64,000 bases of DNA from Sinorhizobium terangae (GTDB lineage Bacteria; Pseudomonadota; Alphaproteobacteria; Rhizobiales; Rhizobiaceae). Under the pieces are notes generated by a model. That model was not told the origin of the DNA. It saw nothing but the letters and a program-made list of their open reading frames with translations, and did no database searches. The stretch's first letter is position 1. The number at the start of each line of letters is the position of its first letter. A program made the position numbers and the translations under genes. Positions 9,265-56,684 of the stretch are shown piece by piece. The stretch covers positions 2,170,001-2,234,000 of the forward strand of contig NZ_CP121659.1 of assembly GCF_029714365.1 (NCBI RefSeq), given 5' to 3'.

Positions 9265-10374
9265 ATGACGCCAGCCGAAAGGCCCTGCGACGAGACGATC
9301 CGGCTGGCGCTGCGCCGGATTCTCGACAGCCGCAGCTTTCGGCGGTCCGAAAGGTTGCGCGCCTTCCTCGCCTATGTCGTCGAAAAGGAAATGATCGGCG
9401 AAGGCGCCCAGCTCAAGGGCTATTCGATCGGCGTCGACGTCTTCGGCCGCGACCAGAGCTTCAATGCCGACGGAGACCCCCTTGTCCGCGTCCACGCCGG
9501 CAAGTTGCGCAAGCAGCTCAAGGCCTTCTACGACACTGAAGGCGCCAGCGAGAAATGGCAGATCACCATTCCGAAGGGAACGTATGTCCCGGAGTATCAC
9601 CGCGTGCAAGTCGGCGACGCCGGCGAGGTTTCGGTGAAGCAGGAAAAGGTCGCCAGCCGGTCGTTGTCCGGGCGCCGCGCTCCCTGGCAGCCGGCTCCTT
9701 TGTCTTCTCCCTGGGCGGTTCTCAGCGTGCTGCCGCTGCTCCTCTTCGCACCCCTCCCCTCGCCCGAAATGACGCTGGATATCGATGCGGAGGCGAAGCT
9801 CGTCGCGGGTCCTATGGCGGCCATCCGCGGCCTGCCGTCAGTCAGCATCAGCGTGTCCGGCCCGGAACATAAAGCCACCAGGCAATTCGCAAATGCACTC
9901 CACGAGGCGGCGCTTCGCCACAAGACGCTCGCCAAGGCGAGCGCGGTCAAGGACAAAGGTGCTTCCGCCTCCAGCAATCAGGCTCTGGCTTTCTCGATCG
10001 ACCTCGCCTGGTACGACGCGCCCGCAGCAGGCATCCGCATCACCCTCTCGCATGATGGTGTTGGCATCCCGCTGCGGCGTGATTTCATCAGCGCGGAACG
10101 GCTGACGAGCGAGCCGGACGTTTTTTTCGAAAGTACTTCGCTTGCCGCGCTGCTTTTTGCCGTCGACGGCGAGATCTACGCCCACGCCGCTGCGGAAAGA
10201 ATCCAGAGCACGCTTATGGAATGCATGACCGCAACGGCGCGCTACCGCCGGCTGCTGACGCGCGACAGCTTTGAGAAGGCGTGGGACTGCCAGCAGAAGC
10301 TCGGTCCGCTCAAGGGCGACGAGCCGCTCTTCATCATTTCCGCCAACAGCCCACTCAAGGTCATCGGCCATTGA
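9265..10374 (+). CDS. Protein with the N-terminal domain found before TPR/cyclase modules; C-terminus of unknown family
   Basis: 369 residues from ATG 9265, with GTGGAG 9-14 bases upstream. Residues 10-112 (LRRILDSRSFRRSERLRAFLAYVV, YSIGVDVFGRDQSF, DPLVRVHAGKLRKQL, IPKGTYVPEY) match a domain often found in front of TPR or adenylate-cyclase-like proteins in rhizobia, where it is thought to be a winged-helix-like regulatory domain. A weak hydrophobic stretch (about 149-164) follows, and the C-terminal 200 residues resemble the periplasmic part of such proteins but contain no cyclase motif. It is likely a membrane-linked regulator; its target is unknown. Confidence 0.6.
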   Translation: MTPAERPCDETIRLALRRILDSRSFRRSERLRAFLAYVVEKEMIGEGAQLKGYSIGVDVFGRDQSFNADGDPLVRVHAGKLRKQLKAFYDTEGASEKWQITIPKGTYVPEYHRVQVGDAGEVSVKQEKVASRSLSGRRAPWQPAPLSSPWAVLSVLPLLLFAPLPSPEMTLDIDAEAKLVAGPMAAIRGLPSVSISVSGPEHKATRQFANALHEAALRHKTLAKASAVKDKGASASSNQALAFSIDLAWYDAPAAGIRITLSHDGVGIPLRRDFISAERLTSEPDVFFESTSLAALLFAVDGEIYAHAAAERIQSTLMECMTATARYRRLLTRDSFEKAWDCQQKLGPLKGDEPLFIISANSPLKVIGH

Positions 10375-14905: not shown

Positions 14906-15631
14906 TCAATCGCGTTGGCGCTGCGGCGCCAGCGACATCGCCTGCGCATAGGCCAGTGGCGAGCGGTTCCCCGGCATGTTCTCGTCCAGGATCAACGTTT
15001 TCAGGTCATCTGAGCGAACGTCGAGAGCCACCGCCTGCTCCAGTTTGTCGACTGACCAAACGACATAGCCAAGCTTGGCGCTGTATCCACACTCCCATCC
15101 GCAGTTGCAATCATGTTTGCGCTCACTCCCACGCTCGTCTTCGGTTTCGCGTTCGCATTCACATTTCGCCGCGACGATTTTGTGCGGGGAGACAGGTAGA
15201 ATCATGATTTGCGGCTTGGGGAGTTTGTAGCAATGCCCTTCATAGGCATAGCCATAAATTACTCCAACGCTTTCAAAGCCCTCGCTCACCCCAGTGGAAA
15301 CGGATAAATAATGGAAATATTTAGATGCTATTACCCCAACAATAACGTTGTCTGCAGAAATTACTGTTTTGTTAAGTAAATCTTCAATAACAACTTCCAT
15401 CACTTCGATAAAATCACCGTAATTATCGGGTGAAATTTTTGGATTTTTTCCCAAAAGTTCTCCGATTTTTTCCTTATAATAAGCATGCGCTTCGGCTGAA
15501 TCTTTTGGCTTTCTAACGATATTACCGGGCCTTCCGTAGAGCCTTATTTCTCCGGGATTGTAGGGACCCGTACGTCCCGTTATCTCACCCGGGTCAGTGA
15601 ACAAACTTGGATTTCCACAGCAATCACTCAT
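14906..15631 (-). CDS. Low-GC Cys-rich protein of unknown family, last gene of the YcaO-TfuA operon
   Basis: 241 residues, not recognised. It begins MSDCCGNPSLFTDPG and has a further Cys cluster near residues 165-195 (AAKCECE, then HDCNCGWECGY) separated by a Glu/Arg-rich stretch. The middle part (IEVMEVVIEDLLNKTVIS) is alpha/beta-like. The gene is clearly more AT-rich than its surroundings (TTA, ATA and AAA codons are frequent), a sign of transfer. The ATG at 15631 follows GGAGTGGAGC, 20 bases after the peptidase gene. As the only unknown in a YcaO/TfuA/peptidase operon it is a candidate substrate or partner; this is inference. Confidence 0.7.
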   Translation of the reverse strand: MSDCCGNPSLFTDPGEITGRTGPYNPGEIRLYGRPGNIVRKPKDSAEAHAYYKEKIGELLGKNPKISPDNYGDFIEVMEVVIEDLLNKTVISADNVIVGVIASKYFHYLSVSTGVSEGFESVGVIYGYAYEGHCYKLPKPQIMILPVSPHKIVAAKCECERETEDERGSERKHDCNCGWECGYSAKLGYVVWSVDKLEQAVALDVRSDDLKTLILDENMPGNRSPLAYAQAMSLAPQRQRD

Positions 15632-15651
15632 GCTCCACTCCTTTCCCAGCT

Positions 15652-16836
15652 CTATCTTTGACTGATGATCTCACGCCATGCGAAATTGGCTTCCAGCAGT
15701 TCGGCGGTCGCCCCGCTTGCGGCGGAAATGACAGCATTTGCCGCCTGATCGAGCCGCAACGTGTCTGGATCGAGTGTCGGCAGCGCCCCCGCAAGCGCTT
15801 GTCCGACTGCATCGCGGGCAGCGGTCAGCGCCAATCTGAAGAACATCGGTTTGACCTGGAAGGCCGCCGCCGTCATCTGGCGGAAACGGTCGAATTCATC
15901 CTGTTCCAAATCTCGAATATCGAAATCCAGAAGCCGCGTGTCGGCGCAGTCGCGCTCAACCAGTTCCCGATGATAAAGCTCGACGATGGTGTCGAAGATG
16001 GCGCCGATGAAAGGGAGCGCCCGGTCGTGCACTTCGCGCGTCGTCTCGGACATGCGGCGAAAATTGGTGGCAAGACGGATCTGGGTCTCGGGACTCGTTT
16101 CCGCAAACCGATTGAGCTCGTTGTAAAGCAGCAGATTGCCTCTCGTTCGGCGCAGCAGCCGGTCGATGGCGGAGTCGAACTGCAGAAACGAGATCAGTGA
16201 CACCACGTCCGAAAAGGCTTCGGAAAATGCAAAGAAGTCGCTGTCACGCAGAGGGGCCGTCGGGATCCCCGTCTCGGAAAGGAGGATAATGTGACCGATT
16301 TCATGCGCGATCGTGTCGAAATTCAACGCGTACGGCCGCCTTATACCCTCGACGTCGGAACACCCCAGTTCCAGGAAACCGTAGCCCGCGTGGGCGTTGT
16401 CCCAGTTTACAAAGGCGATGATCTCAAGTCTCGGAAAGGTCTGCGCAAAAAACCACCGGATCGGGTGACCCAGATAGCTCTGCCAAATGTCAAGGACGAA
16501 ACGCACGCAGGCATAGGCATGTACGCTGAGAAACGCCCTTGAGTTGGGTGACAGATTGTCGAAGTGGCGATCCGGGCCAGGCATTGCCGGCAGACGCTTC
16601 GCTCCATCGAAGGGCGGGAATTGATTGAAACCGTAAGGCTGCTTGTCAACGAGCGGATCGACCACGTAGACGGTCAAATCGCTCGGCCCCTCGCCGATTT
16701 CGTCCCGCGGTATCGACAGCCACACACGATCCGGTTGCTCATATCCGGGGATGAACGGGGGCTGGGGATATATCCAGAAGCGCGTGCCAAGACGCGCGTT
16801 TGCCGATCCGAGGGCATCGTCCCCAGGCAGACGCAT
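15652..16836 (-). CDS. Thermolysin-like (gluzincin) zinc metallopeptidase in the YcaO-TfuA operon
   Basis: 394 residues from ATG 16836, behind GGGGGGC. Zinc motif HEIGH at 178-182, third ligand Glu206 in SEAFSD (the thermolysin form is NEAISD) and a candidate proton-donor His270 in EVHDRA. The order and spacing (24 and 64 residues) resemble M4 peptidases. No signal peptide is evident, so it may act in the cytoplasm. It shares HExxH...EAFxD...EVHDR with the larger peptidase at 39753-41888. In this operon it could process a modified peptide or protein. The function is inferred; the fold call is fairly good. Confidence 0.75.
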   Translation of the reverse strand: MRLPGDDALGSANARLGTRFWIYPQPPFIPGYEQPDRVWLSIPRDEIGEGPSDLTVYVVDPLVDKQPYGFNQFPPFDGAKRLPAMPGPDRHFDNLSPNSRAFLSVHAYACVRFVLDIWQSYLGHPIRWFFAQTFPRLEIIAFVNWDNAHAGYGFLELGCSDVEGIRRPYALNFDTIAHEIGHIILLSETGIPTAPLRDSDFFAFSEAFSDVVSLISFLQFDSAIDRLLRRTRGNLLLYNELNRFAETSPETQIRLATNFRRMSETTREVHDRALPFIGAIFDTIVELYHRELVERDCADTRLLDFDIRDLEQDEFDRFRQMTAAAFQVKPMFFRLALTAARDAVGQALAGALPTLDPDTLRLDQAANAVISAASGATAELLEANFAWREIISQR

Positions 16837-16869
16837 TGCACAATCGCCCCCCGATGGAAAATCTGGCAA

Positions 16870-17637
16870 TTAGAGATTCAATTTATAAGTGTTCACTAAA
16901 TTTGAGTCAATGCCGCCCGCCTCGAGGTCCCGCATGAAGGTATTCGTCGCGACCCAGGAATCAGGCGCGCGCACGCTTTCACGTTGCATTGCAAGATCTG
17001 AAGCGCATTGCAGAGCAAGAAGCGCGTCGCGCTTCTTCTGCCTTACGATATCATTTCTCAGCCTCTTGGCCTCGTCGTCCCGCCACCCGCCGGTCCGCAA
17101 GACTGCATCGAACGAGCGTTCCCGAAAGTTCATCTCTCGCGCGATCGTTGTGAGCAGACGACGCTCCTCGGCTCCGATAAGGCCACGGCGCATCAGGCTC
17201 GACAATGTTCGCTGAATATCAACGAGCGAGTCCGTCAGTGGTGGAAAGCCCAGTTCGGCAGGGCCCGAATGAACGGCAACCGCATCGTCCGGCGCAAGCC
17301 GCCAGCGCCGATACCACCGATAGATGAGGCCGACGCCGACCATGCCGAAGTTGCTGAGTTCCGCCGCCCTAAGCGCTCCCATACTGGCGGCGCCGATCAC
17401 TGTGATTCCTTGCGCCATTGCCCATAGGATTTCCTTGTGCCGCACGGCCGGCCGGTCTTCGAATTGTCCGTCGATCAGAACCATCGCGCGCGGGTGAAAT
17501 GCATGGGCGGCAAGCAGAATGTCGCCCTGGGCGACAGGCTGCAGATAGATGGCGTCGAGCACTGCCTCCGCTTCCGCGAGCCTCAGTGTCGGTCCGAGAA
17601 ACACCAGGATCGGGCCCTGATCGCTCGTATCGCTCAT
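16870..17637 (-). CDS. TfuA-like protein, YcaO partner
   Basis: 255 residues from ATG 17637, which has GAGG six bases upstream; ATGs at 17643 and 17649 fit less well. The TfuA core is clear: VFLGPTL (12-18), QGDILLAAHAFHPRAMVLIDG, AVRHKEILWAMAQGITVIGA and SMGALRAAELSNFGMVGVGLI. TfuA proteins are named from trifolitoxin biosynthesis in Rhizobium and occur with YcaO enzymes, for example in thioamidation of methyl-CoM reductase. It directly follows the YcaO gene (8-base gap), so the two very likely form one enzyme complex. Confidence 0.92.
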   Translation of the reverse strand: MSDTSDQGPILVFLGPTLRLAEAEAVLDAIYLQPVAQGDILLAAHAFHPRAMVLIDGQFEDRPAVRHKEILWAMAQGITVIGAASMGALRAAELSNFGMVGVGLIYRWYRRWRLAPDDAVAVHSGPAELGFPPLTDSLVDIQRTLSSLMRRGLIGAEERRLLTTIAREMNFRERSFDAVLRTGGWRDDEAKRLRNDIVRQKKRDALLALQCASDLAMQRESVRAPDSWVATNTFMRDLEAGGIDSNLVNTYKLNL

Positions 17638-17645
17638 TGTCATCC

Positions 17646-18884
17646 TCATCGCAGAATGGAAAAGGGCGTCGCTCCCGGCAGGATGACCCTCACGCAGTGC
17701 ACGCCCGTTTCGCAGTCGGAACCCACCGGCACTGCCAGTATAGGTCCAACTCGTGCCGCCATTGTTTTCTCGATGAGCGCAGCAAGATCGTCGACGATCG
17801 GTACTTCGCCCGAAACATATCGCGCCGTGGACGCTCGCTCGACAATGAGTTGGCGCGCCTGGGAAACGACCGCGTCCATGCTTCTTCGATAGTGGCCTCG
17901 GGTCTGGTCGTCGCGAGCGCCCGATATCGCGCCGGCGCGCGCCGAGAGCGCCTCCAGCATCGCGCTCGCCGCGGCTGCAGCGACGCTTGGACCCGCCGCA
18001 TAGCCCTCGGTCGGGAGTGCCAGGATTGGTTCGCCGGGCCCCGTTTCGATCGCCTGGCACCAGACGACTGGAACACCGGTTGGCGAGGGCGCCAGCCACA
18101 AGCCGAACGATACCCCGCACTCCCCAGCAACAGATCCTATGCGGTCGACACGGTCCCCCAACCCCGAGGGGGCGATCCGCATGCGATCGAAGAAGCCATG
18201 CGTGGCGAAGGCACGCGCCATGGCGTCGCGCTCGATGCATTCGAACAGCCCGTGCAGGAATGCGCCATAGGCCGACGTATGGCAGGCAAGACCGGTCGTC
18301 GTACGGATGAACAGGCCGTCTCGGGCGGGCGGCGGCTCGGTATAGCGGGTATGTACAAGTTCAAGGGGAACAGGCTCAGCGGCCCCGGTGGCGATGTCGA
18401 TCCCGGTGATCCAATGGATCTCCCTGGTCCGCCAGTTCGAGCCGACCCCGGGTGCCAGAAGCTGTTCAAACAGCCCTTCCGCCAGTCCGATGTCGTCGGC
18501 AGAGGCGAGGAAAACGCGCTCGGCTGGAACGGACTCGGCGAAGAACCGCTCAAGCGATTCCATGATCGCACCCAACGCCGCCTCCGACATGGCGAGGCCG
18601 CGCCCGAGAGACGTCACTTCCGAGAGCGCTGCCGGCCGAACCACCTGGACGACCGGGAGGCCGATCCGGTCGAGCCCGGTCAGGTCCGCGACCCGCGTTA
18701 TCCGCGCTCGGCGACAGAGCGGCAGAACCCTCCGAAGGCAGTGTTCGGCCTCTCCCGGCCCTGTCTGCGTTGCGAAAGGACTTCGCAGGCCGGAAAGAAT
18801 CGCATCCCGAAATCCGGAAAGGGCACCACCCGAGCGCGATCGTTCCTTCAGCGGCAAGTCTTCGGGTTCAACGCTCGATGACAA
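17646..18884 (-). CDS. YcaO-family cyclodehydratase / thioamide-forming ATPase
   Basis: 412 residues if started at TTG 18884, which has GGGAG seven bases upstream and overlaps the preceding gene by 17 bases. YcaO ATP-site segments are present: SEAALGAIMESLERF (100-114, Glu109 and Glu112) and HGLFECIERDA (211-221, Glu215 and Glu218). The C-terminus lacks the Pro-rich tail of azoline-forming YcaOs. Together with an adjacent TfuA this points to backbone thioamide formation rather than azoline formation. YcaO enzymes phosphorylate a peptide amide with ATP. The substrate is not identified. Confidence 0.88.
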   Translation of the reverse strand: MSSSVEPEDLPLKERSRSGGALSGFRDAILSGLRSPFATQTGPGEAEHCLRRVLPLCRRARITRVADLTGLDRIGLPVVQVVRPAALSEVTSLGRGLAMSEAALGAIMESLERFFAESVPAERVFLASADDIGLAEGLFEQLLAPGVGSNWRTREIHWITGIDIATGAAEPVPLELVHTRYTEPPPARDGLFIRTTTGLACHTSAYGAFLHGLFECIERDAMARAFATHGFFDRMRIAPSGLGDRVDRIGSVAGECGVSFGLWLAPSPTGVPVVWCQAIETGPGEPILALPTEGYAAGPSVAAAAASAMLEALSARAGAISGARDDQTRGHYRRSMDAVVSQARQLIVERASTARYVSGEVPIVDDLAALIEKTMAARVGPILAVPVGSDCETGVHCVRVILPGATPFSILR

Positions 18885-21800
18885 TGCCAAGCTCCCGGAC
18901 CGATTGCCTGGCCCGCTCCGCAAGCGCCTCGGCGCCCTGATCCTCGGCAATTTCGATAGCGGCGCGCAAATCCGCGGCGACGATATCGTGAGGTGCCTTG
19001 GCTCGAGCATGGAGAACCGCACGGCATCGATGGAGTTCGGGGAGCCAATAGGCGTGGTGGGTTTCCTTCGCCTTCTCGATCGCCTCATTGGCGACATCGA
19101 TCGCCGCCTCGTATTTCTGCGCCAATCCCAGCATCATGGCGTGCATATAGAGGTAAATCGGAAGGTCTATGACCGTGCCGAGTTGCTTCAAAAGCGAAAG
19201 GCCGCTTTGAAACGTCTCGTGGCCACCCGCTAGATTTTCGAGATGAGCCTCGGCCCAGCCGCCGAAAAGAAGCGACAGGCCGGAAAGCGACTGCATCTCG
19301 TGCTGGCTCGCAAATTCGGCCATCCTTCCGGCAACGTCCGTAAGCCGCTGAAAGTCGTTGCGGTAGAAGGCGGACACCGCTTCCGTGTCCAGCGAATGCG
19401 CTGTGCTCGGCGCATGCGCAATCCTTTCAACAAAGGCGATCATTTTTGAAAGCGCCGCGTCCGATGCCTTTGGCTGGCCCGTCAGCCACAACGAAAGCGC
19501 CAGTTGTCCGAGGCCGCAAACCTTGGCGTCATGCCCGCCATAAAGCGTGCGGCTCGTCTTGGCCGATTGCTCGTCATAGAGCGCCAGCCCCGCTTCGATC
19601 GCCGCCTGGGTCTCGCGATGACGGCCGAGATTGAAATCGATGGCCCAGATGCAATGGTTGACCTGTAGCCTGACCTCCGGATCCTCCACTCCGGCCAGCA
19701 TTGCCTGCACCTGCAGCGCGCGATCGTGCATGGCGGGAAAATCCGCGCCCGTCAGCCACCAGCCCCAATAGATCGGGAACCATTTCGGCTGGTCCTCCAT
19801 CGGTTGCCAGCGCGCGATCGCCACGCCTTTTTCATAGAGCTGACGCGCCGGCTGCGAACTCATTCCCACCATTCCGATGAGGATCGGTCCCAGGGCGACC
19901 AGCGCCGAAAGCTGCAGCAGCTCGACCGCGTGCCCATCGCCCATCCGCTCCGCGAGCGTCAGCGCGTGTTCGAGATATTGGCGTGCCTCGACCATCGCCG
20001 AGCGGCTCGAGCTCTCCTTTCCCGCCGCAATGAACAGCTCGATCGCGCTTTCGAGAAGCCCCGCCCGTTCCGCATGCTCGGCGAGCTCGCCGGTATCGAT
20101 CCAGGCTGCGAGCTGGCGGTCCTGGCTGATGGCGCCAAAAAGGCGGCGATGCAATGTCTGTCGCTGCTTGCGCAACAGCGCGTTGTAGATCGTCTCCTGG
20201 ATCAGTACGTGCCGGAAGCCGTAGGCGGTGCGCCCCGGCGCCCTGATGCGAATCAGGAATCCAGTTTCGCAGAGGGTATCGGCGGCACTTGCCAGCGACT
20301 TCTTGCTGAAATCGGGTAACAACGCGTGCAGCACCGGCAGCGTGAACTGGGGGCCCGCAATCGCACCGGCCCGCGCCACATCCCGGGCGGGACCTAAGTG
20401 CTGGAGGCGAGCGTCAAGGATGCTCTCGAAGGCCGAGACGTGGCTGGGCTTGACGCTTTCCGAGAGGTTCATCGTGTCGGCGCCCACGTTCTGCGACGCC
20501 CACTGGCAAATCTCTTCGATGAAAAGCGGAACGCCGCCCGATATTCTTTCCGTCACATCGAAAAGTTCGGGAAGCATGGCGAGCCTGTGCTCCGGCCATC
20601 TCGCCCTGATCGCCAGCCGCGTCTCGTCGCGATCGAGTGCTTGGAGGGTAATACGCGTCGGATTTGCGGCATCGAGCCAGTGCACCGGGCTCCCGGACGG
20701 TTGGTGTCCCGTCGCCTGCGATCGCGGGCGCGAGGTGACAACGAGCAGGATCGGAAGTTCGCGCAAGACCTGTGCGGCTTCCGCCAGCAGATCCTGCGAG
20801 GTGGGGTCGATCCAATGCACGTCCTCGACCACGACGACGATCGGTCCGTTCTGGCAGGCGGCCTTCAGCGTGCGGAACACGGCGCGATGCGCCTTTTCGC
20901 GGACCGCCTTCGGATCGCTGCCTGACAAAAACTCGTTTCGCCCCTGCGCTCCGAGCAGGTAGGCGAAGACGTCCGTTGCTTCCTCATCGTAAATGCCGTT
21001 GCGTTCAAAGAGGTCCGTCACCGCGGCCGCCGTCAGTTGCCCGTCGGCTTCCGAGATGTCTCCCGGAATACTGTTGCGCAGCGGATGTAGCGTCGATCGG
21101 AAACCGCCGGGAAGGCACTGGAAGAAAAACAGCTTTGATCGCCGGTCGCGCGTGTTCCGGCGGACCTCCCGCAACAGCCGGGACTTGCCGATACCAGCCT
21201 CTCCCACGATAAGCAGCACCTCGCCCTCACCGCCAAGCACGCCCTCCCAGGCCGCGGCGATCGCAGCCATCTCGCTTTCGCGCCCGATGAAAGGACCACC
21301 GAGCCTTCCATATGCGTAAAAGCGATTGACCTCGATCTTGTGCCCGAGCGCGCGCCACACCTTCTCGGGCTCGGAAAATCCCTTGAGCGTCTTGCTGCCC
21401 TGGAACACGAAGGCATGCGACCGCCCCGCGAGATTGCGCGTGCCCTCGGAGACCAGGACGCTGTCCGGCTCAGCGATGGATTCGAGCCGGGTTGCCATGG
21501 CGAGCGCCGCGCCGGTGACAGCTTCCTGCGTCCAATTCTCCATCTTTGCTTCGTTGACGAGCGCGATCGACGTCGCGACGCCGACGCGAACGTGCAAATC
21601 GTCACGCTTCACCTCGTGGCCGACGCGCCGGCAGCCTTCGATGATGTCCAAGCCGGCGCGGATGGCGAGCGAGGCCGCATCCTTCGCGTCGAGCTCGATC
21701 GGAAACAGCGCCACACCGCCGTCGCCCGCCTCGTGCTGGATGATGCCGGAATGGGAGGCGATCGATTGTCTCGCCGCAGCCGCAAAGGCGCTCATCAGTT

Positions 21801-21963
21801 CCTGATAGTCTTCGATGTCCATGCGCTGGAAGAGATCGGTCGAGCCCACGAGGTCGTAGCAGAGCGCGGTTACGATGCGCCGCTCGCTGTCATGCGTGGA
21901 TGAACCGCCCCGTGCGCGCTTGGTCAATCGTCGTGGTGTGTTGGTCCGACTCTCGCGAAGCAT
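18868..21963 (-). CDS. Class III cyclase domain fused to AAA/STAND ATPase and helical repeats
   Basis: 1031 residues. The N-terminal class III cyclase-like domain has both metal Asp positions (Asp37 in CYDLVGSTD, Asp81 in HEAGDGGVALF). The ATPase domain has Walker A GEAGIGKS (254-261) and a Walker B-like VVVVEDVHWIDPTSQDLL. The C-terminal 500 residues are alpha-helical, TPR-like. Such proteins act as signal-dependent regulators. The gene heads the operon; its end overlaps the start of the YcaO gene. The ATG at 21963 follows GGGAGTGG. Whether it makes cAMP or controls YcaO-TfuA expression or activity is not known. Confidence 0.85.
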   Translation of the reverse strand: MLRESRTNTPRRLTKRARGGSSTHDSERRIVTALCYDLVGSTDLFQRMDIEDYQELMSAFAAAARQSIASHSGIIQHEAGDGGVALFPIELDAKDAASLAIRAGLDIIEGCRRVGHEVKRDDLHVRVGVATSIALVNEAKMENWTQEAVTGAALAMATRLESIAEPDSVLVSEGTRNLAGRSHAFVFQGSKTLKGFSEPEKVWRALGHKIEVNRFYAYGRLGGPFIGRESEMAAIAAAWEGVLGGEGEVLLIVGEAGIGKSRLLREVRRNTRDRRSKLFFFQCLPGGFRSTLHPLRNSIPGDISEADGQLTAAAVTDLFERNGIYDEEATDVFAYLLGAQGRNEFLSGSDPKAVREKAHRAVFRTLKAACQNGPIVVVVEDVHWIDPTSQDLLAEAAQVLRELPILLVVTSRPRSQATGHQPSGSPVHWLDAANPTRITLQALDRDETRLAIRARWPEHRLAMLPELFDVTERISGGVPLFIEEICQWASQNVGADTMNLSESVKPSHVSAFESILDARLQHLGPARDVARAGAIAGPQFTLPVLHALLPDFSKKSLASAADTLCETGFLIRIRAPGRTAYGFRHVLIQETIYNALLRKQRQTLHRRLFGAISQDRQLAAWIDTGELAEHAERAGLLESAIELFIAAGKESSSRSAMVEARQYLEHALTLAERMGDGHAVELLQLSALVALGPILIGMVGMSSQPARQLYEKGVAIARWQPMEDQPKWFPIYWGWWLTGADFPAMHDRALQVQAMLAGVEDPEVRLQVNHCIWAIDFNLGRHRETQAAIEAGLALYDEQSAKTSRTLYGGHDAKVCGLGQLALSLWLTGQPKASDAALSKMIAFVERIAHAPSTAHSLDTEAVSAFYRNDFQRLTDVAGRMAEFASQHEMQSLSGLSLLFGGWAEAHLENLAGGHETFQSGLSLLKQLGTVIDLPIYLYMHAMMLGLAQKYEAAIDVANEAIEKAKETHHAYWLPELHRCRAVLHARAKAPHDIVAADLRAAIEIAEDQGAEALAERARQSVRELGIVIER

Positions 21964-39752: not shown

Positions 39753-41888
39753 ATGTCCGTTTTGTCGACCATGCCTCCGCGCAAACTCCGAATCTTCGCC
39801 TTCGACCCGAGCATGGGGCGACGACACGAAACGCTGCCGCTCAACGAAGTGATCGTTTCGATCCCTTGGGAGATGGACAAGCTCGACCCCGGCGTTCCGT
39901 TCGTCGGTCCGGTCGGCGAATATGTCGAGGTCGTTGACTTCGACCCGTCGCTCGATCTCGTCTACAGGCCGGTCAATCTGCACGATCCGAGCTTGCTCGC
40001 CGACAATGGTCTAAGGCCCGCGGAATGGAACCCGCAATTCCACCAGCAGATGACCTATGCCGTGGCGATGAACACCATCGTCAATTTCGAAAGCGCCCTT
40101 GGCCGTGTCGCGCTCTGGGCGCCGCGCGACCGCGACGAAAAAGGCCGCTGGATCAATCCGCAATATGTGCAGCGCCTGCGCATCTATCCGCATGCGCTGC
40201 GTGACGCCAATGCCTATTACAGCCCCGAGAAAAAGGCCCTGCTTTTCGGCTATTTCGCGGCCGGAGAAGGCCAATCCGGGGCGCCTGCCGGGACCATCAT
40301 ATTCACGTGCCTCTCCCACGACATCATCGCCCACGAAACGTCGCATGCCCTGCTCGACGGCATGCATCCCCGCTTCAGCGAGGCGACCAATCCGGACGTG
40401 CTGGCGCTGCACGAAGCCTTCGCGGACATCGTCGCGATCTTCCAGCATTTCTCCTATCCGGACGTGTTGAAGGACCAGATCGCCCGCACGCGCGGCGACC
40501 TCGAGAGCCAGAACCTGCTCGGCCAGCTCGCCCAGGAATTCGGCCAGGTCCTCGGCCGCGGAACGGCGCTGCGCGACGCGCTCGGCGGCTGGAAGGACGG
40601 CATCTGGCGAGCGCACGAGCCCAATCCGAGGCTTCTGCGCGAGACGGAAGAGGTGCATGACCGCGGTGCCATTCTGGTGGCCGCCGTGTTCCGGGCGTTC
40701 CTGTCGATTTATCGCGCGCGCATATCCGATCTCCTGCGCATCGCGTCGAGCGGCACGGGCATTTTGCCGGCGGGCGCACTGCACCCCGATCTCATCAACC
40801 GGCTGGCCAAGGAGGCATCGAAATCGGCCCGGCACATCCTGCAGATGTGCATCCGCGCGCTCGACTACTGTCCGCCCGTCGACGTCACCTTCGGCGACTA
40901 TCTGCGCGCGATCATTACCGCCGATCGCGATCTCTACCCTGAGGACGAGCACAACTACCGCGTCGCAGTGATGGAGGCCTTTTTGGCTTGGGGTATTGTT
41001 CCGCGCGACATGCCGATCGTCTCGGTCCAGACGCTGCTCTGGCCGACGATGGCCGAAGCAGCGGCCGACTACAAAGCCGCCTTTCCCAGCCTCAGCGATC
41101 TCAAAGCTGATGTCGCCTATCTGCTTTCGCGGCCACTCGAAATGATCGACGAACTCAAAAGTCGCAGCGATTTCCACGACAGCGAGGGCCAGAAATTCCT
41201 CGACGGGCTGGACCGCACCGCACAGGAAATTTTTAATGAACTGAACAAGGCGATGGGCAACCGCCTGCCGCAGACCGCCAAGCGGTCGAAATCGTCGCTC
41301 CGGGAAATCCTCGGACGCAATCTCCTGGAGCTCGGCCTCGAGGCCGACCGCAAGGTCGAATGGCTGGCGCGCGACCTCTACGGGCGGCTGTTCTGGGGAT
41401 TGATCACCGAGGCCAAGAATGCGCCGCTTCGCGATATCATCCGCATCAGGACCGACGTCGACGCACCGGCGACGGTCCGGCGCAGCAAGATCGTCGACAG
41501 TCCGGCCATCGAGGTGCACAGCGTCCGCATGGCCGCACGCCGCGGCAACCGCGACCAGATGGAGCGCGAATATGTCGTCGAACTGACGCAGACCCGCCAT
41601 GGTTACCTCGACCCCAAGAAGCAGGAGGCGGCGGACAAGGGTAAGCCGCCGAGAGGTCCCCACGATTTCTATTTTCGCCGCGGCTGCACGCTGCTCATCG
41701 ACGCCGAGACTTTCGAGATCCGCCGGGTCATCCGCACGCCCGGCGACATCTGCGACGACGCCGAGCTCGAAAGAATGCGGGCCTACCTGACCCGACAGGC
41801 GCGGAGGCGGGAAAACGCCTTCACCGCTGGCGGGAGCAAACCCGTTCGACCTGAGATTTTCGCCCATCTTCACCGACAGGGGAGCTAG
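39753..41888 (+). CDS. Large thermolysin-like (gluzincin) zinc metallopeptidase
   Basis: 711 residues. Zinc motif HETSH at 194-198, third ligand Glu221 in HEAFAD and candidate proton donor His302 in EVHDRG. This order resembles M4 peptidases with larger spacing, and the same motifs occur in the operon peptidase at 15652-16836. No signal peptide is evident. The C-terminal 400 residues are of unknown fold. The next gene (MBL-fold hydrolase) starts three bases after the stop, indicating an operon. Substrate unknown. Confidence 0.7.
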   Translation: MSVLSTMPPRKLRIFAFDPSMGRRHETLPLNEVIVSIPWEMDKLDPGVPFVGPVGEYVEVVDFDPSLDLVYRPVNLHDPSLLADNGLRPAEWNPQFHQQMTYAVAMNTIVNFESALGRVALWAPRDRDEKGRWINPQYVQRLRIYPHALRDANAYYSPEKKALLFGYFAAGEGQSGAPAGTIIFTCLSHDIIAHETSHALLDGMHPRFSEATNPDVLALHEAFADIVAIFQHFSYPDVLKDQIARTRGDLESQNLLGQLAQEFGQVLGRGTALRDALGGWKDGIWRAHEPNPRLLRETEEVHDRGAILVAAVFRAFLSIYRARISDLLRIASSGTGILPAGALHPDLINRLAKEASKSARHILQMCIRALDYCPPVDVTFGDYLRAIITADRDLYPEDEHNYRVAVMEAFLAWGIVPRDMPIVSVQTLLWPTMAEAAADYKAAFPSLSDLKADVAYLLSRPLEMIDELKSRSDFHDSEGQKFLDGLDRTAQEIFNELNKAMGNRLPQTAKRSKSSLREILGRNLLELGLEADRKVEWLARDLYGRLFWGLITEAKNAPLRDIIRIRTDVDAPATVRRSKIVDSPAIEVHSVRMAARRGNRDQMEREYVVELTQTRHGYLDPKKQEAADKGKPPRGPHDFYFRRGCTLLIDAETFEIRRVIRTPGDICDDAELERMRAYLTRQARRRENAFTAGGSKPVRPEIFAHLHRQGS

Positions 41889-41891
41889 GAG

Positions 41892-43439
41892 ATGCCCAGA
41901 ATGGAGGCGCCCGAGTCCGGTGTCACGGTGCGCATGTATCGGCAAGGCCATGGCGACTGTTTTCTTCTGGCGATGCGCAAGGTGGACGGCAGTGCCTTTT
42001 ACATGCTGATCGACTGCGGCCTGTGGACGAACTCCGAAATCAAGCCCGACCAGACGATCGACAAGGTGATCGCCGACATCGCCGAAGCGACCGCCAACCG
42101 ATTGGACGTCGTGCTGGTGACCCATGAGCACATGGATCACGTCAACGGCTTTGCGGCGAAGGATCCCGCGACGAGAAAGCCATGCTTCGACCCGATCGAG
42201 ATCGGCGAGCTCTGGCTGGGATGGACCGAGGATGGTGATGATCCGTTCGCCAACAGCCTGCGCGAGCGCTTCCACGACACGCTGCTCGCCCTGATGGGCG
42301 CCGACGAGCGGCTCGAGCGTGCGGGCTTCGGTATCCATTCGCCGAACCGCACGATGCTGCGCGATCTCCTTTCCTTCGAGACCGGAGAGGATGCAGCCGA
42401 CGCGCTTCGCGAACGCTTCAGAAAGGTCAAACGGCAACACCCGGCACTCTCTCCTCGAAGACAGGGCGCGCTTGCCATCGAAGGGATCACCAACAAGCGC
42501 GCCATCAAATATTTGCGCGACCGCATTGCCGGCGATCCGGTTTTCCTGCGACCCGACCATGAGCCCTACCGACTGCCGGGCGTCGATGGCGTGCGAGTCT
42601 ACGCGCTCGGACCGCCGCGCGACATCGAGCTGCTGCTTTCGCTGGAACCTCAGGGCGAGGAGGAATTCAGACTGTCGGCCGACGGAGCGACGCTGAGCCT
42701 GCTTGCGGCGACGGTCGACGGCGGCCCGGAGGACGCCAACCGCGCCTTCGACCCGCGCTTCGGCATTTCGCGCAAGAACGTCGAACAGGGGCCTGATGCG
42801 TTTCTGAAGGCGTTTTTTGCCGACCACTACGGCGTCAAAGGCAAGCGGGGTTCCGCCGAGGCCTGGCGGCAGATCGATAGCGACTGGCTTGAGAGCGGGG
42901 AAACGCTGGCTCTCCGGCTGAATGACGAGGTGAACAACACCAGCCTCGTTATCGCGATCGAACTTCCCGGAACCGGCAAGGTGCTGCTTTTCACCGGCGA
43001 CGCCCAGCGTGGCAACTGGGTCTCCTGGGCGCCGCTCAAATGGAATGTCAATGGCAGGATCATCACGGCGCGCGATCTTCTCGGCCGCACGGTTCTCTAC
43101 AAGGTCGGCCATCACGGCAGCCACAATGCCACGCTCGACGGCAGCGTGGCGGCGGACTATGCCAACCTTTCCTGGCTGGCAAGCAACGCCTTCCAGGACG
43201 AATTCGTGGCGATGATCCCGGCCAATACGCCCTGGGCGGCGCACAAGGACAAGCCGTGGGAGCACCCGCTTCGCTTCATCGAGGAGAGGCTCCTGCAAAA
43301 GGCTCGCGGTCGCGTGTTCCGCAGCGATGTCGACCATGTCGCTAAACCCGGTGACATCGCTGCCGACGAGTGGCAAAGATTCAAGCGGACCGAAACCGAC
43401 CTCTTCTTTGGATACACCGTCGCCGACACCGCGGCATAG
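41892..43439 (+). CDS. MBL-fold metallohydrolase, ComEC/Rec2 C-terminal-like
   Basis: 515 residues. The HxHxDH zinc motif is THEHMDH (77-83), and LLFTGDAQRGNWVSW and VLYKVGHHGSHNATLDGS supply the further ligands of the MBL family (GDA and GHHGSHNA as in ComEC-type domains). No membrane segments, so a soluble hydrolase. It is three bases downstream of the metallopeptidase gene, so a two-enzyme system is likely. The reaction (nuclease, phosphodiesterase or other) is unknown. Confidence 0.8.
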   Translation: MPRMEAPESGVTVRMYRQGHGDCFLLAMRKVDGSAFYMLIDCGLWTNSEIKPDQTIDKVIADIAEATANRLDVVLVTHEHMDHVNGFAAKDPATRKPCFDPIEIGELWLGWTEDGDDPFANSLRERFHDTLLALMGADERLERAGFGIHSPNRTMLRDLLSFETGEDAADALRERFRKVKRQHPALSPRRQGALAIEGITNKRAIKYLRDRIAGDPVFLRPDHEPYRLPGVDGVRVYALGPPRDIELLLSLEPQGEEEFRLSADGATLSLLAATVDGGPEDANRAFDPRFGISRKNVEQGPDAFLKAFFADHYGVKGKRGSAEAWRQIDSDWLESGETLALRLNDEVNNTSLVIAIELPGTGKVLLFTGDAQRGNWVSWAPLKWNVNGRIITARDLLGRTVLYKVGHHGSHNATLDGSVAADYANLSWLASNAFQDEFVAMIPANTPWAAHKDKPWEHPLRFIEERLLQKARGRVFRSDVDHVAKPGDIAADEWQRFKRTETDLFFGYTVADTAA

Positions 43440-56008: not shown

Positions 56009-56197
56009 GATGCCTCCACTTTGCACTTGCTCCCATGCTGCCGCCCTCCTCGCGAAACGCGTGCAGCCGCAGGAGTTTTTCACGCTCATCGGGTAAGTCA
56101 AGGCGTTTCCGTGCGCGCGGCACACTGGATAATATATCCGTCACATTTCGCTTGACCGCCCCTTTTCTTGGGCGGCGGAAACACCTATATCACGTGT

Positions 56198-56522
56198 GCC
56201 GTCTTCGGGCGGCTATGGCAATAAACGGGCGATGAAATAAACCCATTGGACCCGGGGGCGGTACCCGGCGCCTCCACCAAAAACCGGCCTGGAAATGCGG
56301 ACCGGCTTTTGATGGGGGCGAAATAGGATCGACAAGGGCGTAAAGATCGACTTTTTGCTCGGCATTGTACCACCGTTATCGGGCTAAACTTATAGTTGCA
56401 AACGACAACTATGCTGAAGCACGTCTCGCTGCCTAACGGCGGTGCGGCACTTCAAATCAAGCCCTTCCGGGTAGCACCGTAAGGCGGGGTCCGAAGGCAC
56501 CTGGCAACAGAAGCCTTCACCT
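56198..56522 (+). ncRNA. ssrA: Two-piece (circularly permuted) tmRNA
   Basis: The acceptor part comes first, with GGACCCGGGGGCGGTACCCG and the 3' end CGCCTCCACCA (CCA at 56277-56279). A processed linker (56280-56313) follows, then the coding part from GGGGGCGAAATAGG (56314), whose GGGGGCG pairs with CGCCTCC of the acceptor end. The tag frame 56398-56436 reads ANDNYAEARLAA-stop. Permuted order is the alphaproteobacterial form. It rescues stalled ribosomes and tags the product for ClpXP. The outer ends are approximate. Confidence 0.93.
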
Positions 56523-56684
56523 TCTCCCCTGTCGCGAAATGGTCTATAGATGCTTGATAATTGACTCGTCATAAGCGGACGGGGCAAAGGAGTGTCCGTA
56601 GAGCGCTGCACGCCGCTTTGGCGCGCAAGGTCGCTGCGGCGCTTTAACATGCAGCAGTTGAGTTCGAAGGAAGACGGGGATCAT

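Follow-up and report, generated by a model that had tools for sequence, protein, structure and literature searches.

A five-gene YcaO-TfuA operon of Sinorhizobium terangae, probably a new form of thioamide peptide system with its own precursor and peptidase

Which molecule is modified by the YcaO and TfuA proteins encoded at positions 14906 to 21963 of a 64,000-nucleotide stretch of Sinorhizobium terangae DNA (contig NZ_CP121659.1; the whole stretch is called the window below)? The original prediction, made from the sequence alone, described a YcaO-TfuA modification operon that also encodes a class III cyclase/AAA protein, a thermolysin-like peptidase and a low-GC (guanine plus cytosine), Cys-rich unknown protein, and it saw no obvious precursor gene. 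This last point has to be corrected, as the repeat-tailed homologues of the Cys-rich protein and a profile match indicate that this protein is itself the likely precursor. We call it PRE, the peptidase PEP and the cyclase/ATPase CYC. To the reading of the operon as a thioamide cassette, with PRE as a leader-core precursor and PEP as its peptidase, we assign a probability of roughly 0.7. The five genes and the parts of PRE are as follows.

18868..21963, minus strand: CYC (class III nucleotide-cyclase domain, degenerate; AAA_16 ATPase; C-terminal region), 1031 residues, probable regulator
17646..18857, minus strand: YcaO (PF02624), start uncertain (TTG at 18857, 18884 or 18890)
16870..17649, minus strand: TfuA (PF07812), its ATG overlapping the YcaO stop
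15652..16836, minus strand: PEP, thermolysin-fold metallopeptidase, 394 residues from the first ATG (the alternative start at 16869 is a TTG)
14906..15631, minus strand: PRE, probable precursor (leader domain and C-terminal core), 241 residues, the earlier Cys-rich unknown
15284..15523, minus strand: hypervariable middle of PRE (residues 37-116), modelled as two helices; GC 0.346, against about 62% for the window
15182..15277, minus strand: conserved hairpin of the PRE leader domain, residues 119-150, VIYGYAYEGHCYKLPKPQIM, from alignment and model
14909..14980, minus strand: proposed core of PRE, residues 218-241, NMPGNRSPLAYAQAMSLAPQRQRD, from conservation; the alignment with repeat-type proteins ends at residue 222

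The assignment of PRE as a precursor draws on its distant homologues. A PEP profile searched over 385 alphaproteobacterial genomes matched 13 of them, eight strongly (E under 1e-90). The strong matches include the window's own genome and G107, which has the same five-gene order. In the six other strong-PEP loci, TfuA adjoins PEP, YcaO adjoins TfuA in five, and a PRE-like domain is encoded directly after PEP in all five loci whose contig continues. Tandem-repeat tails are found in four of these PRE homologues, with the units RAVMAS (L125), VSGAR (L127), LVGRSD (L128), and GMNV (L130). A profile of the five homologues found 34 database proteins of 138-288 residues, and many of the 30 inspected end in repeats, such as SGARV, GSRVS, GRDGNLV, RADLV, and RGAMV. 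The last 70 residues of each protein were scored by autocorrelation, with 500 shuffled versions of the same stretch as the control and p <=0.022 taken as significant. A significant C-terminal repeat is present in 32 of the 39 repeat-type PREs (28 of the 34 database proteins and four of the five loci), and the stretch preceding the tail is significant in two, one of which is L125, whose repeats extend into it. These 39 proteins are not independent: profiles A6 and A7 include the loci in which the repeats were discovered, and P0240 is a near-duplicate of L127. In a profile-profile comparison, the Rhizobiales PREs (A2) matched the repeat-type PREs (A7) with 98.8% probability and an E-value of 4.9e-17 over window residues 116-222. 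Beyond the aligned stretch comes the putative core, which is N-x-P-G-x-R-S-P-x-x-Y in the window's clade and consists of repeats in most other homologues. As the distant homologues carry tandem-repeat tails and the two profiles match, PRE is very probably a precursor in which some 217 residues of folded leader are followed by a C-terminal core.

With regard to the window's clade, PRE exhibits a conserved N-terminal motif and a conserved C-terminal half that flank the hypervariable middle. The mean frequency of the commonest residue is 0.21 in the middle, 0.78 in the hairpin (residues 119-150) and 0.74 in residues 214-241. The core is single and nearly invariant, with N218, P220, G221, R223, S224, P225, and Y228 retained in 97-100% of 89 rows. 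In the repeat test, only four of the 119 PREs from Rhizobiales are significant at 0.01, and they are so through Cys/Gly/Asp motifs, not core repeats. No NCBIfam model matched PRE at E up to 1, so the NHLP and Nif11 leader precursor models are unmatched. The low GC that had been ascribed to this gene was confirmed (0.483, with 0.585-0.656 in the remaining four genes). Its richness in Cys, in turn, holds for the window protein, with 8 Cys in 241 residues, and not for the family: as 18 divergent orthologues have just 1-5 Cys, this is a trait of one lineage.

In Foldseek, the AlphaFold model of PEP (predicted local distance difference test, pLDDT, 86) finds thermolysin along with further M4/M36 enzymes (best E 2.4e-5), with an identity of 10-14% to the best solved matches. 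H178, E179, H182, and E206 are invariant in all 47 aligned homologues and form an HExxH...E metal site, which we take to be of the thermolysin type. The model match and the invariant site bear out the predicted thermolysin-like peptidase. PEP therefore resembles the M4 peptidases in fold and metal site; unlike them, it matches no Pfam or NCBIfam family above cut-off, the curated M4 models included, and a hydrophobic signal-like stretch was seen in none of the 47 homologues by a crude hydropathy measure. As a curated M4 sequence-model match is lacking, PEP is classed as thermolysin-like and not filed as M4. The fold, the invariant site and the lack of a signal-like stretch suggest that PEP is probably an active cytosolic enzyme.

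PRE and PEP occur together. In an A7 search of the 385 genomes, with at most eight candidates scored per genome, PRE was found in seven, all within the eight strong-PEP genomes; the remaining one, G549, has a contig that stops at PEP. Four YcaO-TfuA loci that lack PEP (L132, L133, L164, and L165) showed no PRE in the 13-16 kb fetched. From this co-occurrence we infer that PRE is cut by PEP. Elsewhere in the window, a 711-residue protein with no Pfam match (39753-41888, plus strand) contains a stretch resembling the PEP profile (E 2.0e-14), and is directly followed by a metallo-beta-lactamase-fold protein (41892-43439, plus strand).

The five genes are conserved together. Alignment A1 of PRE homologues was used to scan GTDB genomes, and the best 80 of 103 loci were kept. 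The order CYC-YcaO-TfuA-PEP-PRE, on one strand, is present in 77 of these 80 loci, which far exceeds chance; in seven of the 77 (L023, L032, L037, L043, L063, L065, and L079), CYC, YcaO or PEP is split over two frames and was counted as present. The original prediction regarded the peptidase and the unknown protein as what sets this modification operon apart from the usual YcaO-TfuA pair and proposed a comparison of neighbourhoods as a check; both genes are indeed retained beside YcaO-TfuA in these 77 loci, so the refuting outcome it had named, loss of these neighbours in homologous operons, did not occur. As the 80 loci came from a PRE query, they are unable to reveal PEP operons without PRE, a possibility that the searches of the 385 genomes address. 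Among the loci without the five genes, L085 lies on a contig of 3,180 bases, on which PEP and PRE are seen. L086 (Ensifer sp. MPMI2T, near 10001-10180) and L093 (Rhizobium sp. CF122, near 10001-10183) hold C-terminal remnants of PRE alone, with the operon absent, which looks like a loss of the unit in these two genomes.

The hosts of the five-gene loci include Sinorhizobium/Ensifer, Rhizobium, Phyllobacterium, Chelativorans, Pseudaminobacter, Mesorhizobium, Stappia, Aestuariivirga, Taklimakanibacter, and Microvirga, among others. Among the 103 loci, the closest relative of PRE, from S. terangae USDA4894 (L021), differs by one residue. PRE is matched in 29 of 32 genomes of the genus, weakly in G001 and G024 and only as a fragment with a stop in G010. 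The window lies on the chromosome, and the unit also occurs on plasmids, with 74 matching plasmid records, for example Rhizobium johnstonii 3841 pRL11 and a Phyllobacterium zundukense plasmid, where PEP and PRE are annotated just as hypothetical. On pRL11 (L160), a small hypothetical gene without wide conservation, RL_RS31020 (8342-8737), directly follows PRE. No sixth conserved neighbour was found: frames of at least 120 residues are common to at most 16 of the 77 loci and frames of at least 50 residues to at most 19, counts that are slightly underestimated because some contigs end soon after PRE (e.g. L051, L070, and L091). As neighbours are not common to the loci, the unit appears to consist of these five genes.

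The junctions and domain matches agree with the predicted layout of five minus-strand genes with overlaps or short gaps. In addition to the overlap of the TfuA ATG with the YcaO stop, 33 bases separate the TfuA stop from the PEP start, a GGAG precedes the PRE start, and the junctions of the operon are short. The predicted identities of the cyclase/AAA protein, YcaO and TfuA are borne out by Pfam matches above cut-off: 164.5 bits for YcaO (PF02624, cut-off 25.7), 144.3 bits for TfuA (PF07812, cut-off 30), and 26.9 and 78.8 bits for the cyclase domain (PF00211, cut-off 21.9) and AAA_16 (PF13191, cut-off 32.6) of CYC. YcaO and TfuA retain their family residues in the alignment, and we take the functional roles of the YcaO residues to be those usually assigned to them. 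The closest solved structure to YcaO is MJ1094 (E 7.4e-7).

Based on these observations, we propose that the five genes would form, in root-nodule bacteria and their soil relatives, a self-contained cassette for a sulphur-modified peptide of the YcaO-TfuA type. PRE would be produced as a 241-residue precursor, with the folded leader preceding the short core. YcaO, with ATP, and TfuA, as the sulphur supplier, would swap a backbone oxygen for sulphur in the core, and cytosolic PEP would release the core by cutting. In distant relatives, the core array could give several peptide copies per precursor. CYC would probably sense a signal and control the system. The thioamide is predicted to lie at the residue before the invariant Arg223, which is Asn222 in the window, by analogy with the thiovarsolins, where it is in a Pro-Arg bond (PMC6511847), and the std product of Streptomyces thermodiastaticus, where it is in an Asn-Lys bond (preprint PMC13174530). 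In the repeat-type tails, Arg is preceded by G, S or A in 125 of 149 cases, with each repeat copy counted separately. The GMNV repeats, which have no Arg, are an exception to this prediction.

Compared with known systems, the operon is most readily set beside the thiovarsolin var cluster of Streptomyces varsoviensis, with which it shares YcaO, TfuA, and a small Arg-containing unit. The var precursor has repeated C-terminal cores, as do the distant PRE homologues, in contrast to the single core of the window's clade. The operon also differs in its precursor, which is much longer and has a folded leader, in its cyclase/ATPase and in its dedicated metallopeptidase, the var cluster being without a specific protease in the account given (PMC6511847). 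The std cluster likewise has a YcaO-TfuA pair, a cluster peptidase, and a conserved C-terminal core motif, and its thioamide precedes a basic residue, as would that of the predicted Asn222-Arg223 site. Its peptidase is, however, of the S8/S53 type and forms a fusion with a carbamoyltransferase, and the pathway also uses an iron enzyme (PMC13174530); neither is encoded by the five genes. With regard to the pair that thioamidates a glycine of McrA, YcaO matches TIGR03266 (115.3 bits) and TfuA matches NF033432 (175.8 bits), but both scores are under the curated cut-offs (365 and 235.2) and the gene company differs. In summary of these traits, YcaO and TfuA are adjacent, as in YcaO-TfuA thioamidated pathways for ribosomally synthesised and post-translationally modified peptides (RiPPs), and the cluster encodes what reads, by sequence only, as a leader-core precursor. 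The operon is probably a new form of thioamide RiPP system.

Could PRE instead be a mature, working thioamide protein, comparable to McrA or ribosomal protein uL16, that PEP just trims without releasing a peptide? Whole-protein modification by YcaO enzymes is known (PMC13063428), and among solved structures YcaO is closest to the McrA-modifying MJ1094. The predicted domain of PRE is confidently folded, as in a working protein (pLDDT about 90 in the conserved parts), and the core is about as conserved as the leader in the window's clade, whereas cores often vary. The tandem-repeat tails of most distant homologues, the hypervariable middle and a dedicated peptidase that is always with PRE across the 385 genomes weigh against this explanation, which we consider unlikely. 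It is still less probable that PRE is a helper, such as a substrate-binding or immunity protein, for a substrate encoded elsewhere in the genome. The length of PRE is large for a precursor, and the parts could act in trans given two further YcaO-TfuA loci in the genome, but the tandem repeats reside in PRE itself and, among frames of at least 50 residues, no sixth gene accompanies the operon in more than 19 of the 77 loci. Azolines are also made by YcaO enzymes, and Ser is present in some repeat units and in the window core; a ring, azoline or similar, or some other amide change in place of the thioamide is the least probable outcome, as TfuA is present in 77 of 77 five-gene loci and units such as GMNV offer no Ser, Thr or Cys. 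In the cases studied in the cited accounts, TfuA pairs install thioamides (PMC6511847, PMC13174530).

The thioamide cassette with PRE as precursor remains the preferred reading, and several further results, like the fold and the conserved core just mentioned, weigh against it. At 241 residues, PRE far exceeds the usual precursor length. The window PRE gave no significant repeat in the autocorrelation test, its clade having one core without repeat, and none was significant in L129, P0245, P0256, P0257, P0265, P0268, and P0270, of which P0256 and P0265 look truncated before the core. In G697, the sole YcaO is on a different contig. CYC stands in order in just two of the six distant loci; the other four comprise two with weak cyclase-like matches on the opposite strand, one whose contig is too short, and one with none. 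No transporter conserved beside the operon was found among the neighbours of the 77 loci. In the YcaO and TfuA trees, each built from 23 of the 77 loci and 11 further loci (L131 carries a 'rep' label there though its core is single), the single-core operons fall on one side of a well-supported branch (100/100 for YcaO and 100/99 for TfuA). Repeat-type loci intermingle with PEP-less YcaO-TfuA loci across that branch, so that a single origin of the PEP/PRE partnership is unsupported by YcaO and TfuA. Finally, no chemistry was observed.

With regard to CYC, the P-loop GxxGxGKS is conserved at 95% or more. The class III cyclase residues Asp, Asp, and Arg are kept in 73, 76, and 76 of 77 rows, which include the window and the CYC-like rows L127, L129, and L132 from outside the order. 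The position of the cyclase-site Asn is Ala in 63 of the 77 and Asn in six, L125 and L128 retaining Asn. These residues presumably have the roles of their class III counterparts. As the Asn position is mostly Ala, it is doubtful whether CYC acts as a cyclase in the window's clade. CYC resembles the kinase/cyclase fusion of thiazole/oxazole-modified microcins (TIGR03903), which it matches with 286.1 bits over residues 20-1025; unlike that family, it is under the cut-off of 705.75 and has no N-terminal kinase part, the match starting at profile position 276. Two other genomes (L164 and L165) likewise have a CYC relative close to a YcaO-TfuA pair that lacks PEP, encoded on the opposite strand. 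Contig C2 of the window's genome holds two further YcaO-TfuA loci without PEP and PRE, L132 and L133, the former with a CYC relative. A cyclase/ATPase may accompany such YcaO-TfuA pairs in general.

The TfuA-YcaO pair itself is already known in Rhizobium, as a 2021 survey counted more than 500 TfuA-related clusters there, at a time when the known TfuA-YcaO RiPPs were all from Actinobacteria (PMC8120280). That survey ran RiPPER at standard settings, and the default precursor window of this tool is 20-120 residues (PMC6511847), a limit that applied in both of these TfuA surveys, so PRE-type precursors (138-288 residues, 241 in the window) would be left out; this length limit suggests why they were passed over. 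The precursor types named in the relevant part of the survey are CCRG-2, albusnodin, thiopeptide, and Nif11, the PRE type not being among these (PMC8120280). Literature searches of open-licence papers listed none devoted to a precursor of the PRE type or to a thermolysin-like peptidase encoded with TfuA and YcaO. With the present results, a widespread rhizobial cassette gains a concrete candidate substrate, a named core and a putative processing enzyme, which makes a direct test possible. A core so little changed throughout the Rhizobiaceae would indicate that the thioamide peptide has a conserved physiological role. If this is true, these bacteria would make one conserved thioamide peptide, as a signal, cofactor or metal ligand, and not a varied antibiotic arsenal. 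That the operons represent a new alphaproteobacterial class of thioamidated RiPPs, with a large folded leader, a dedicated cytosolic thermolysin-like peptidase and, in Rhizobiaceae and relatives, one near-invariant core as a conserved physiological peptide, is a tentative proposal, to which we give somewhat less than an even chance. The modification, O to S, would add 16 Da to the named 24-residue tail.

Apart from the operon, the window contains a transfer-messenger RNA gene at 56185-56527 on the plus strand, with the tag ANDNYAEARLAA.

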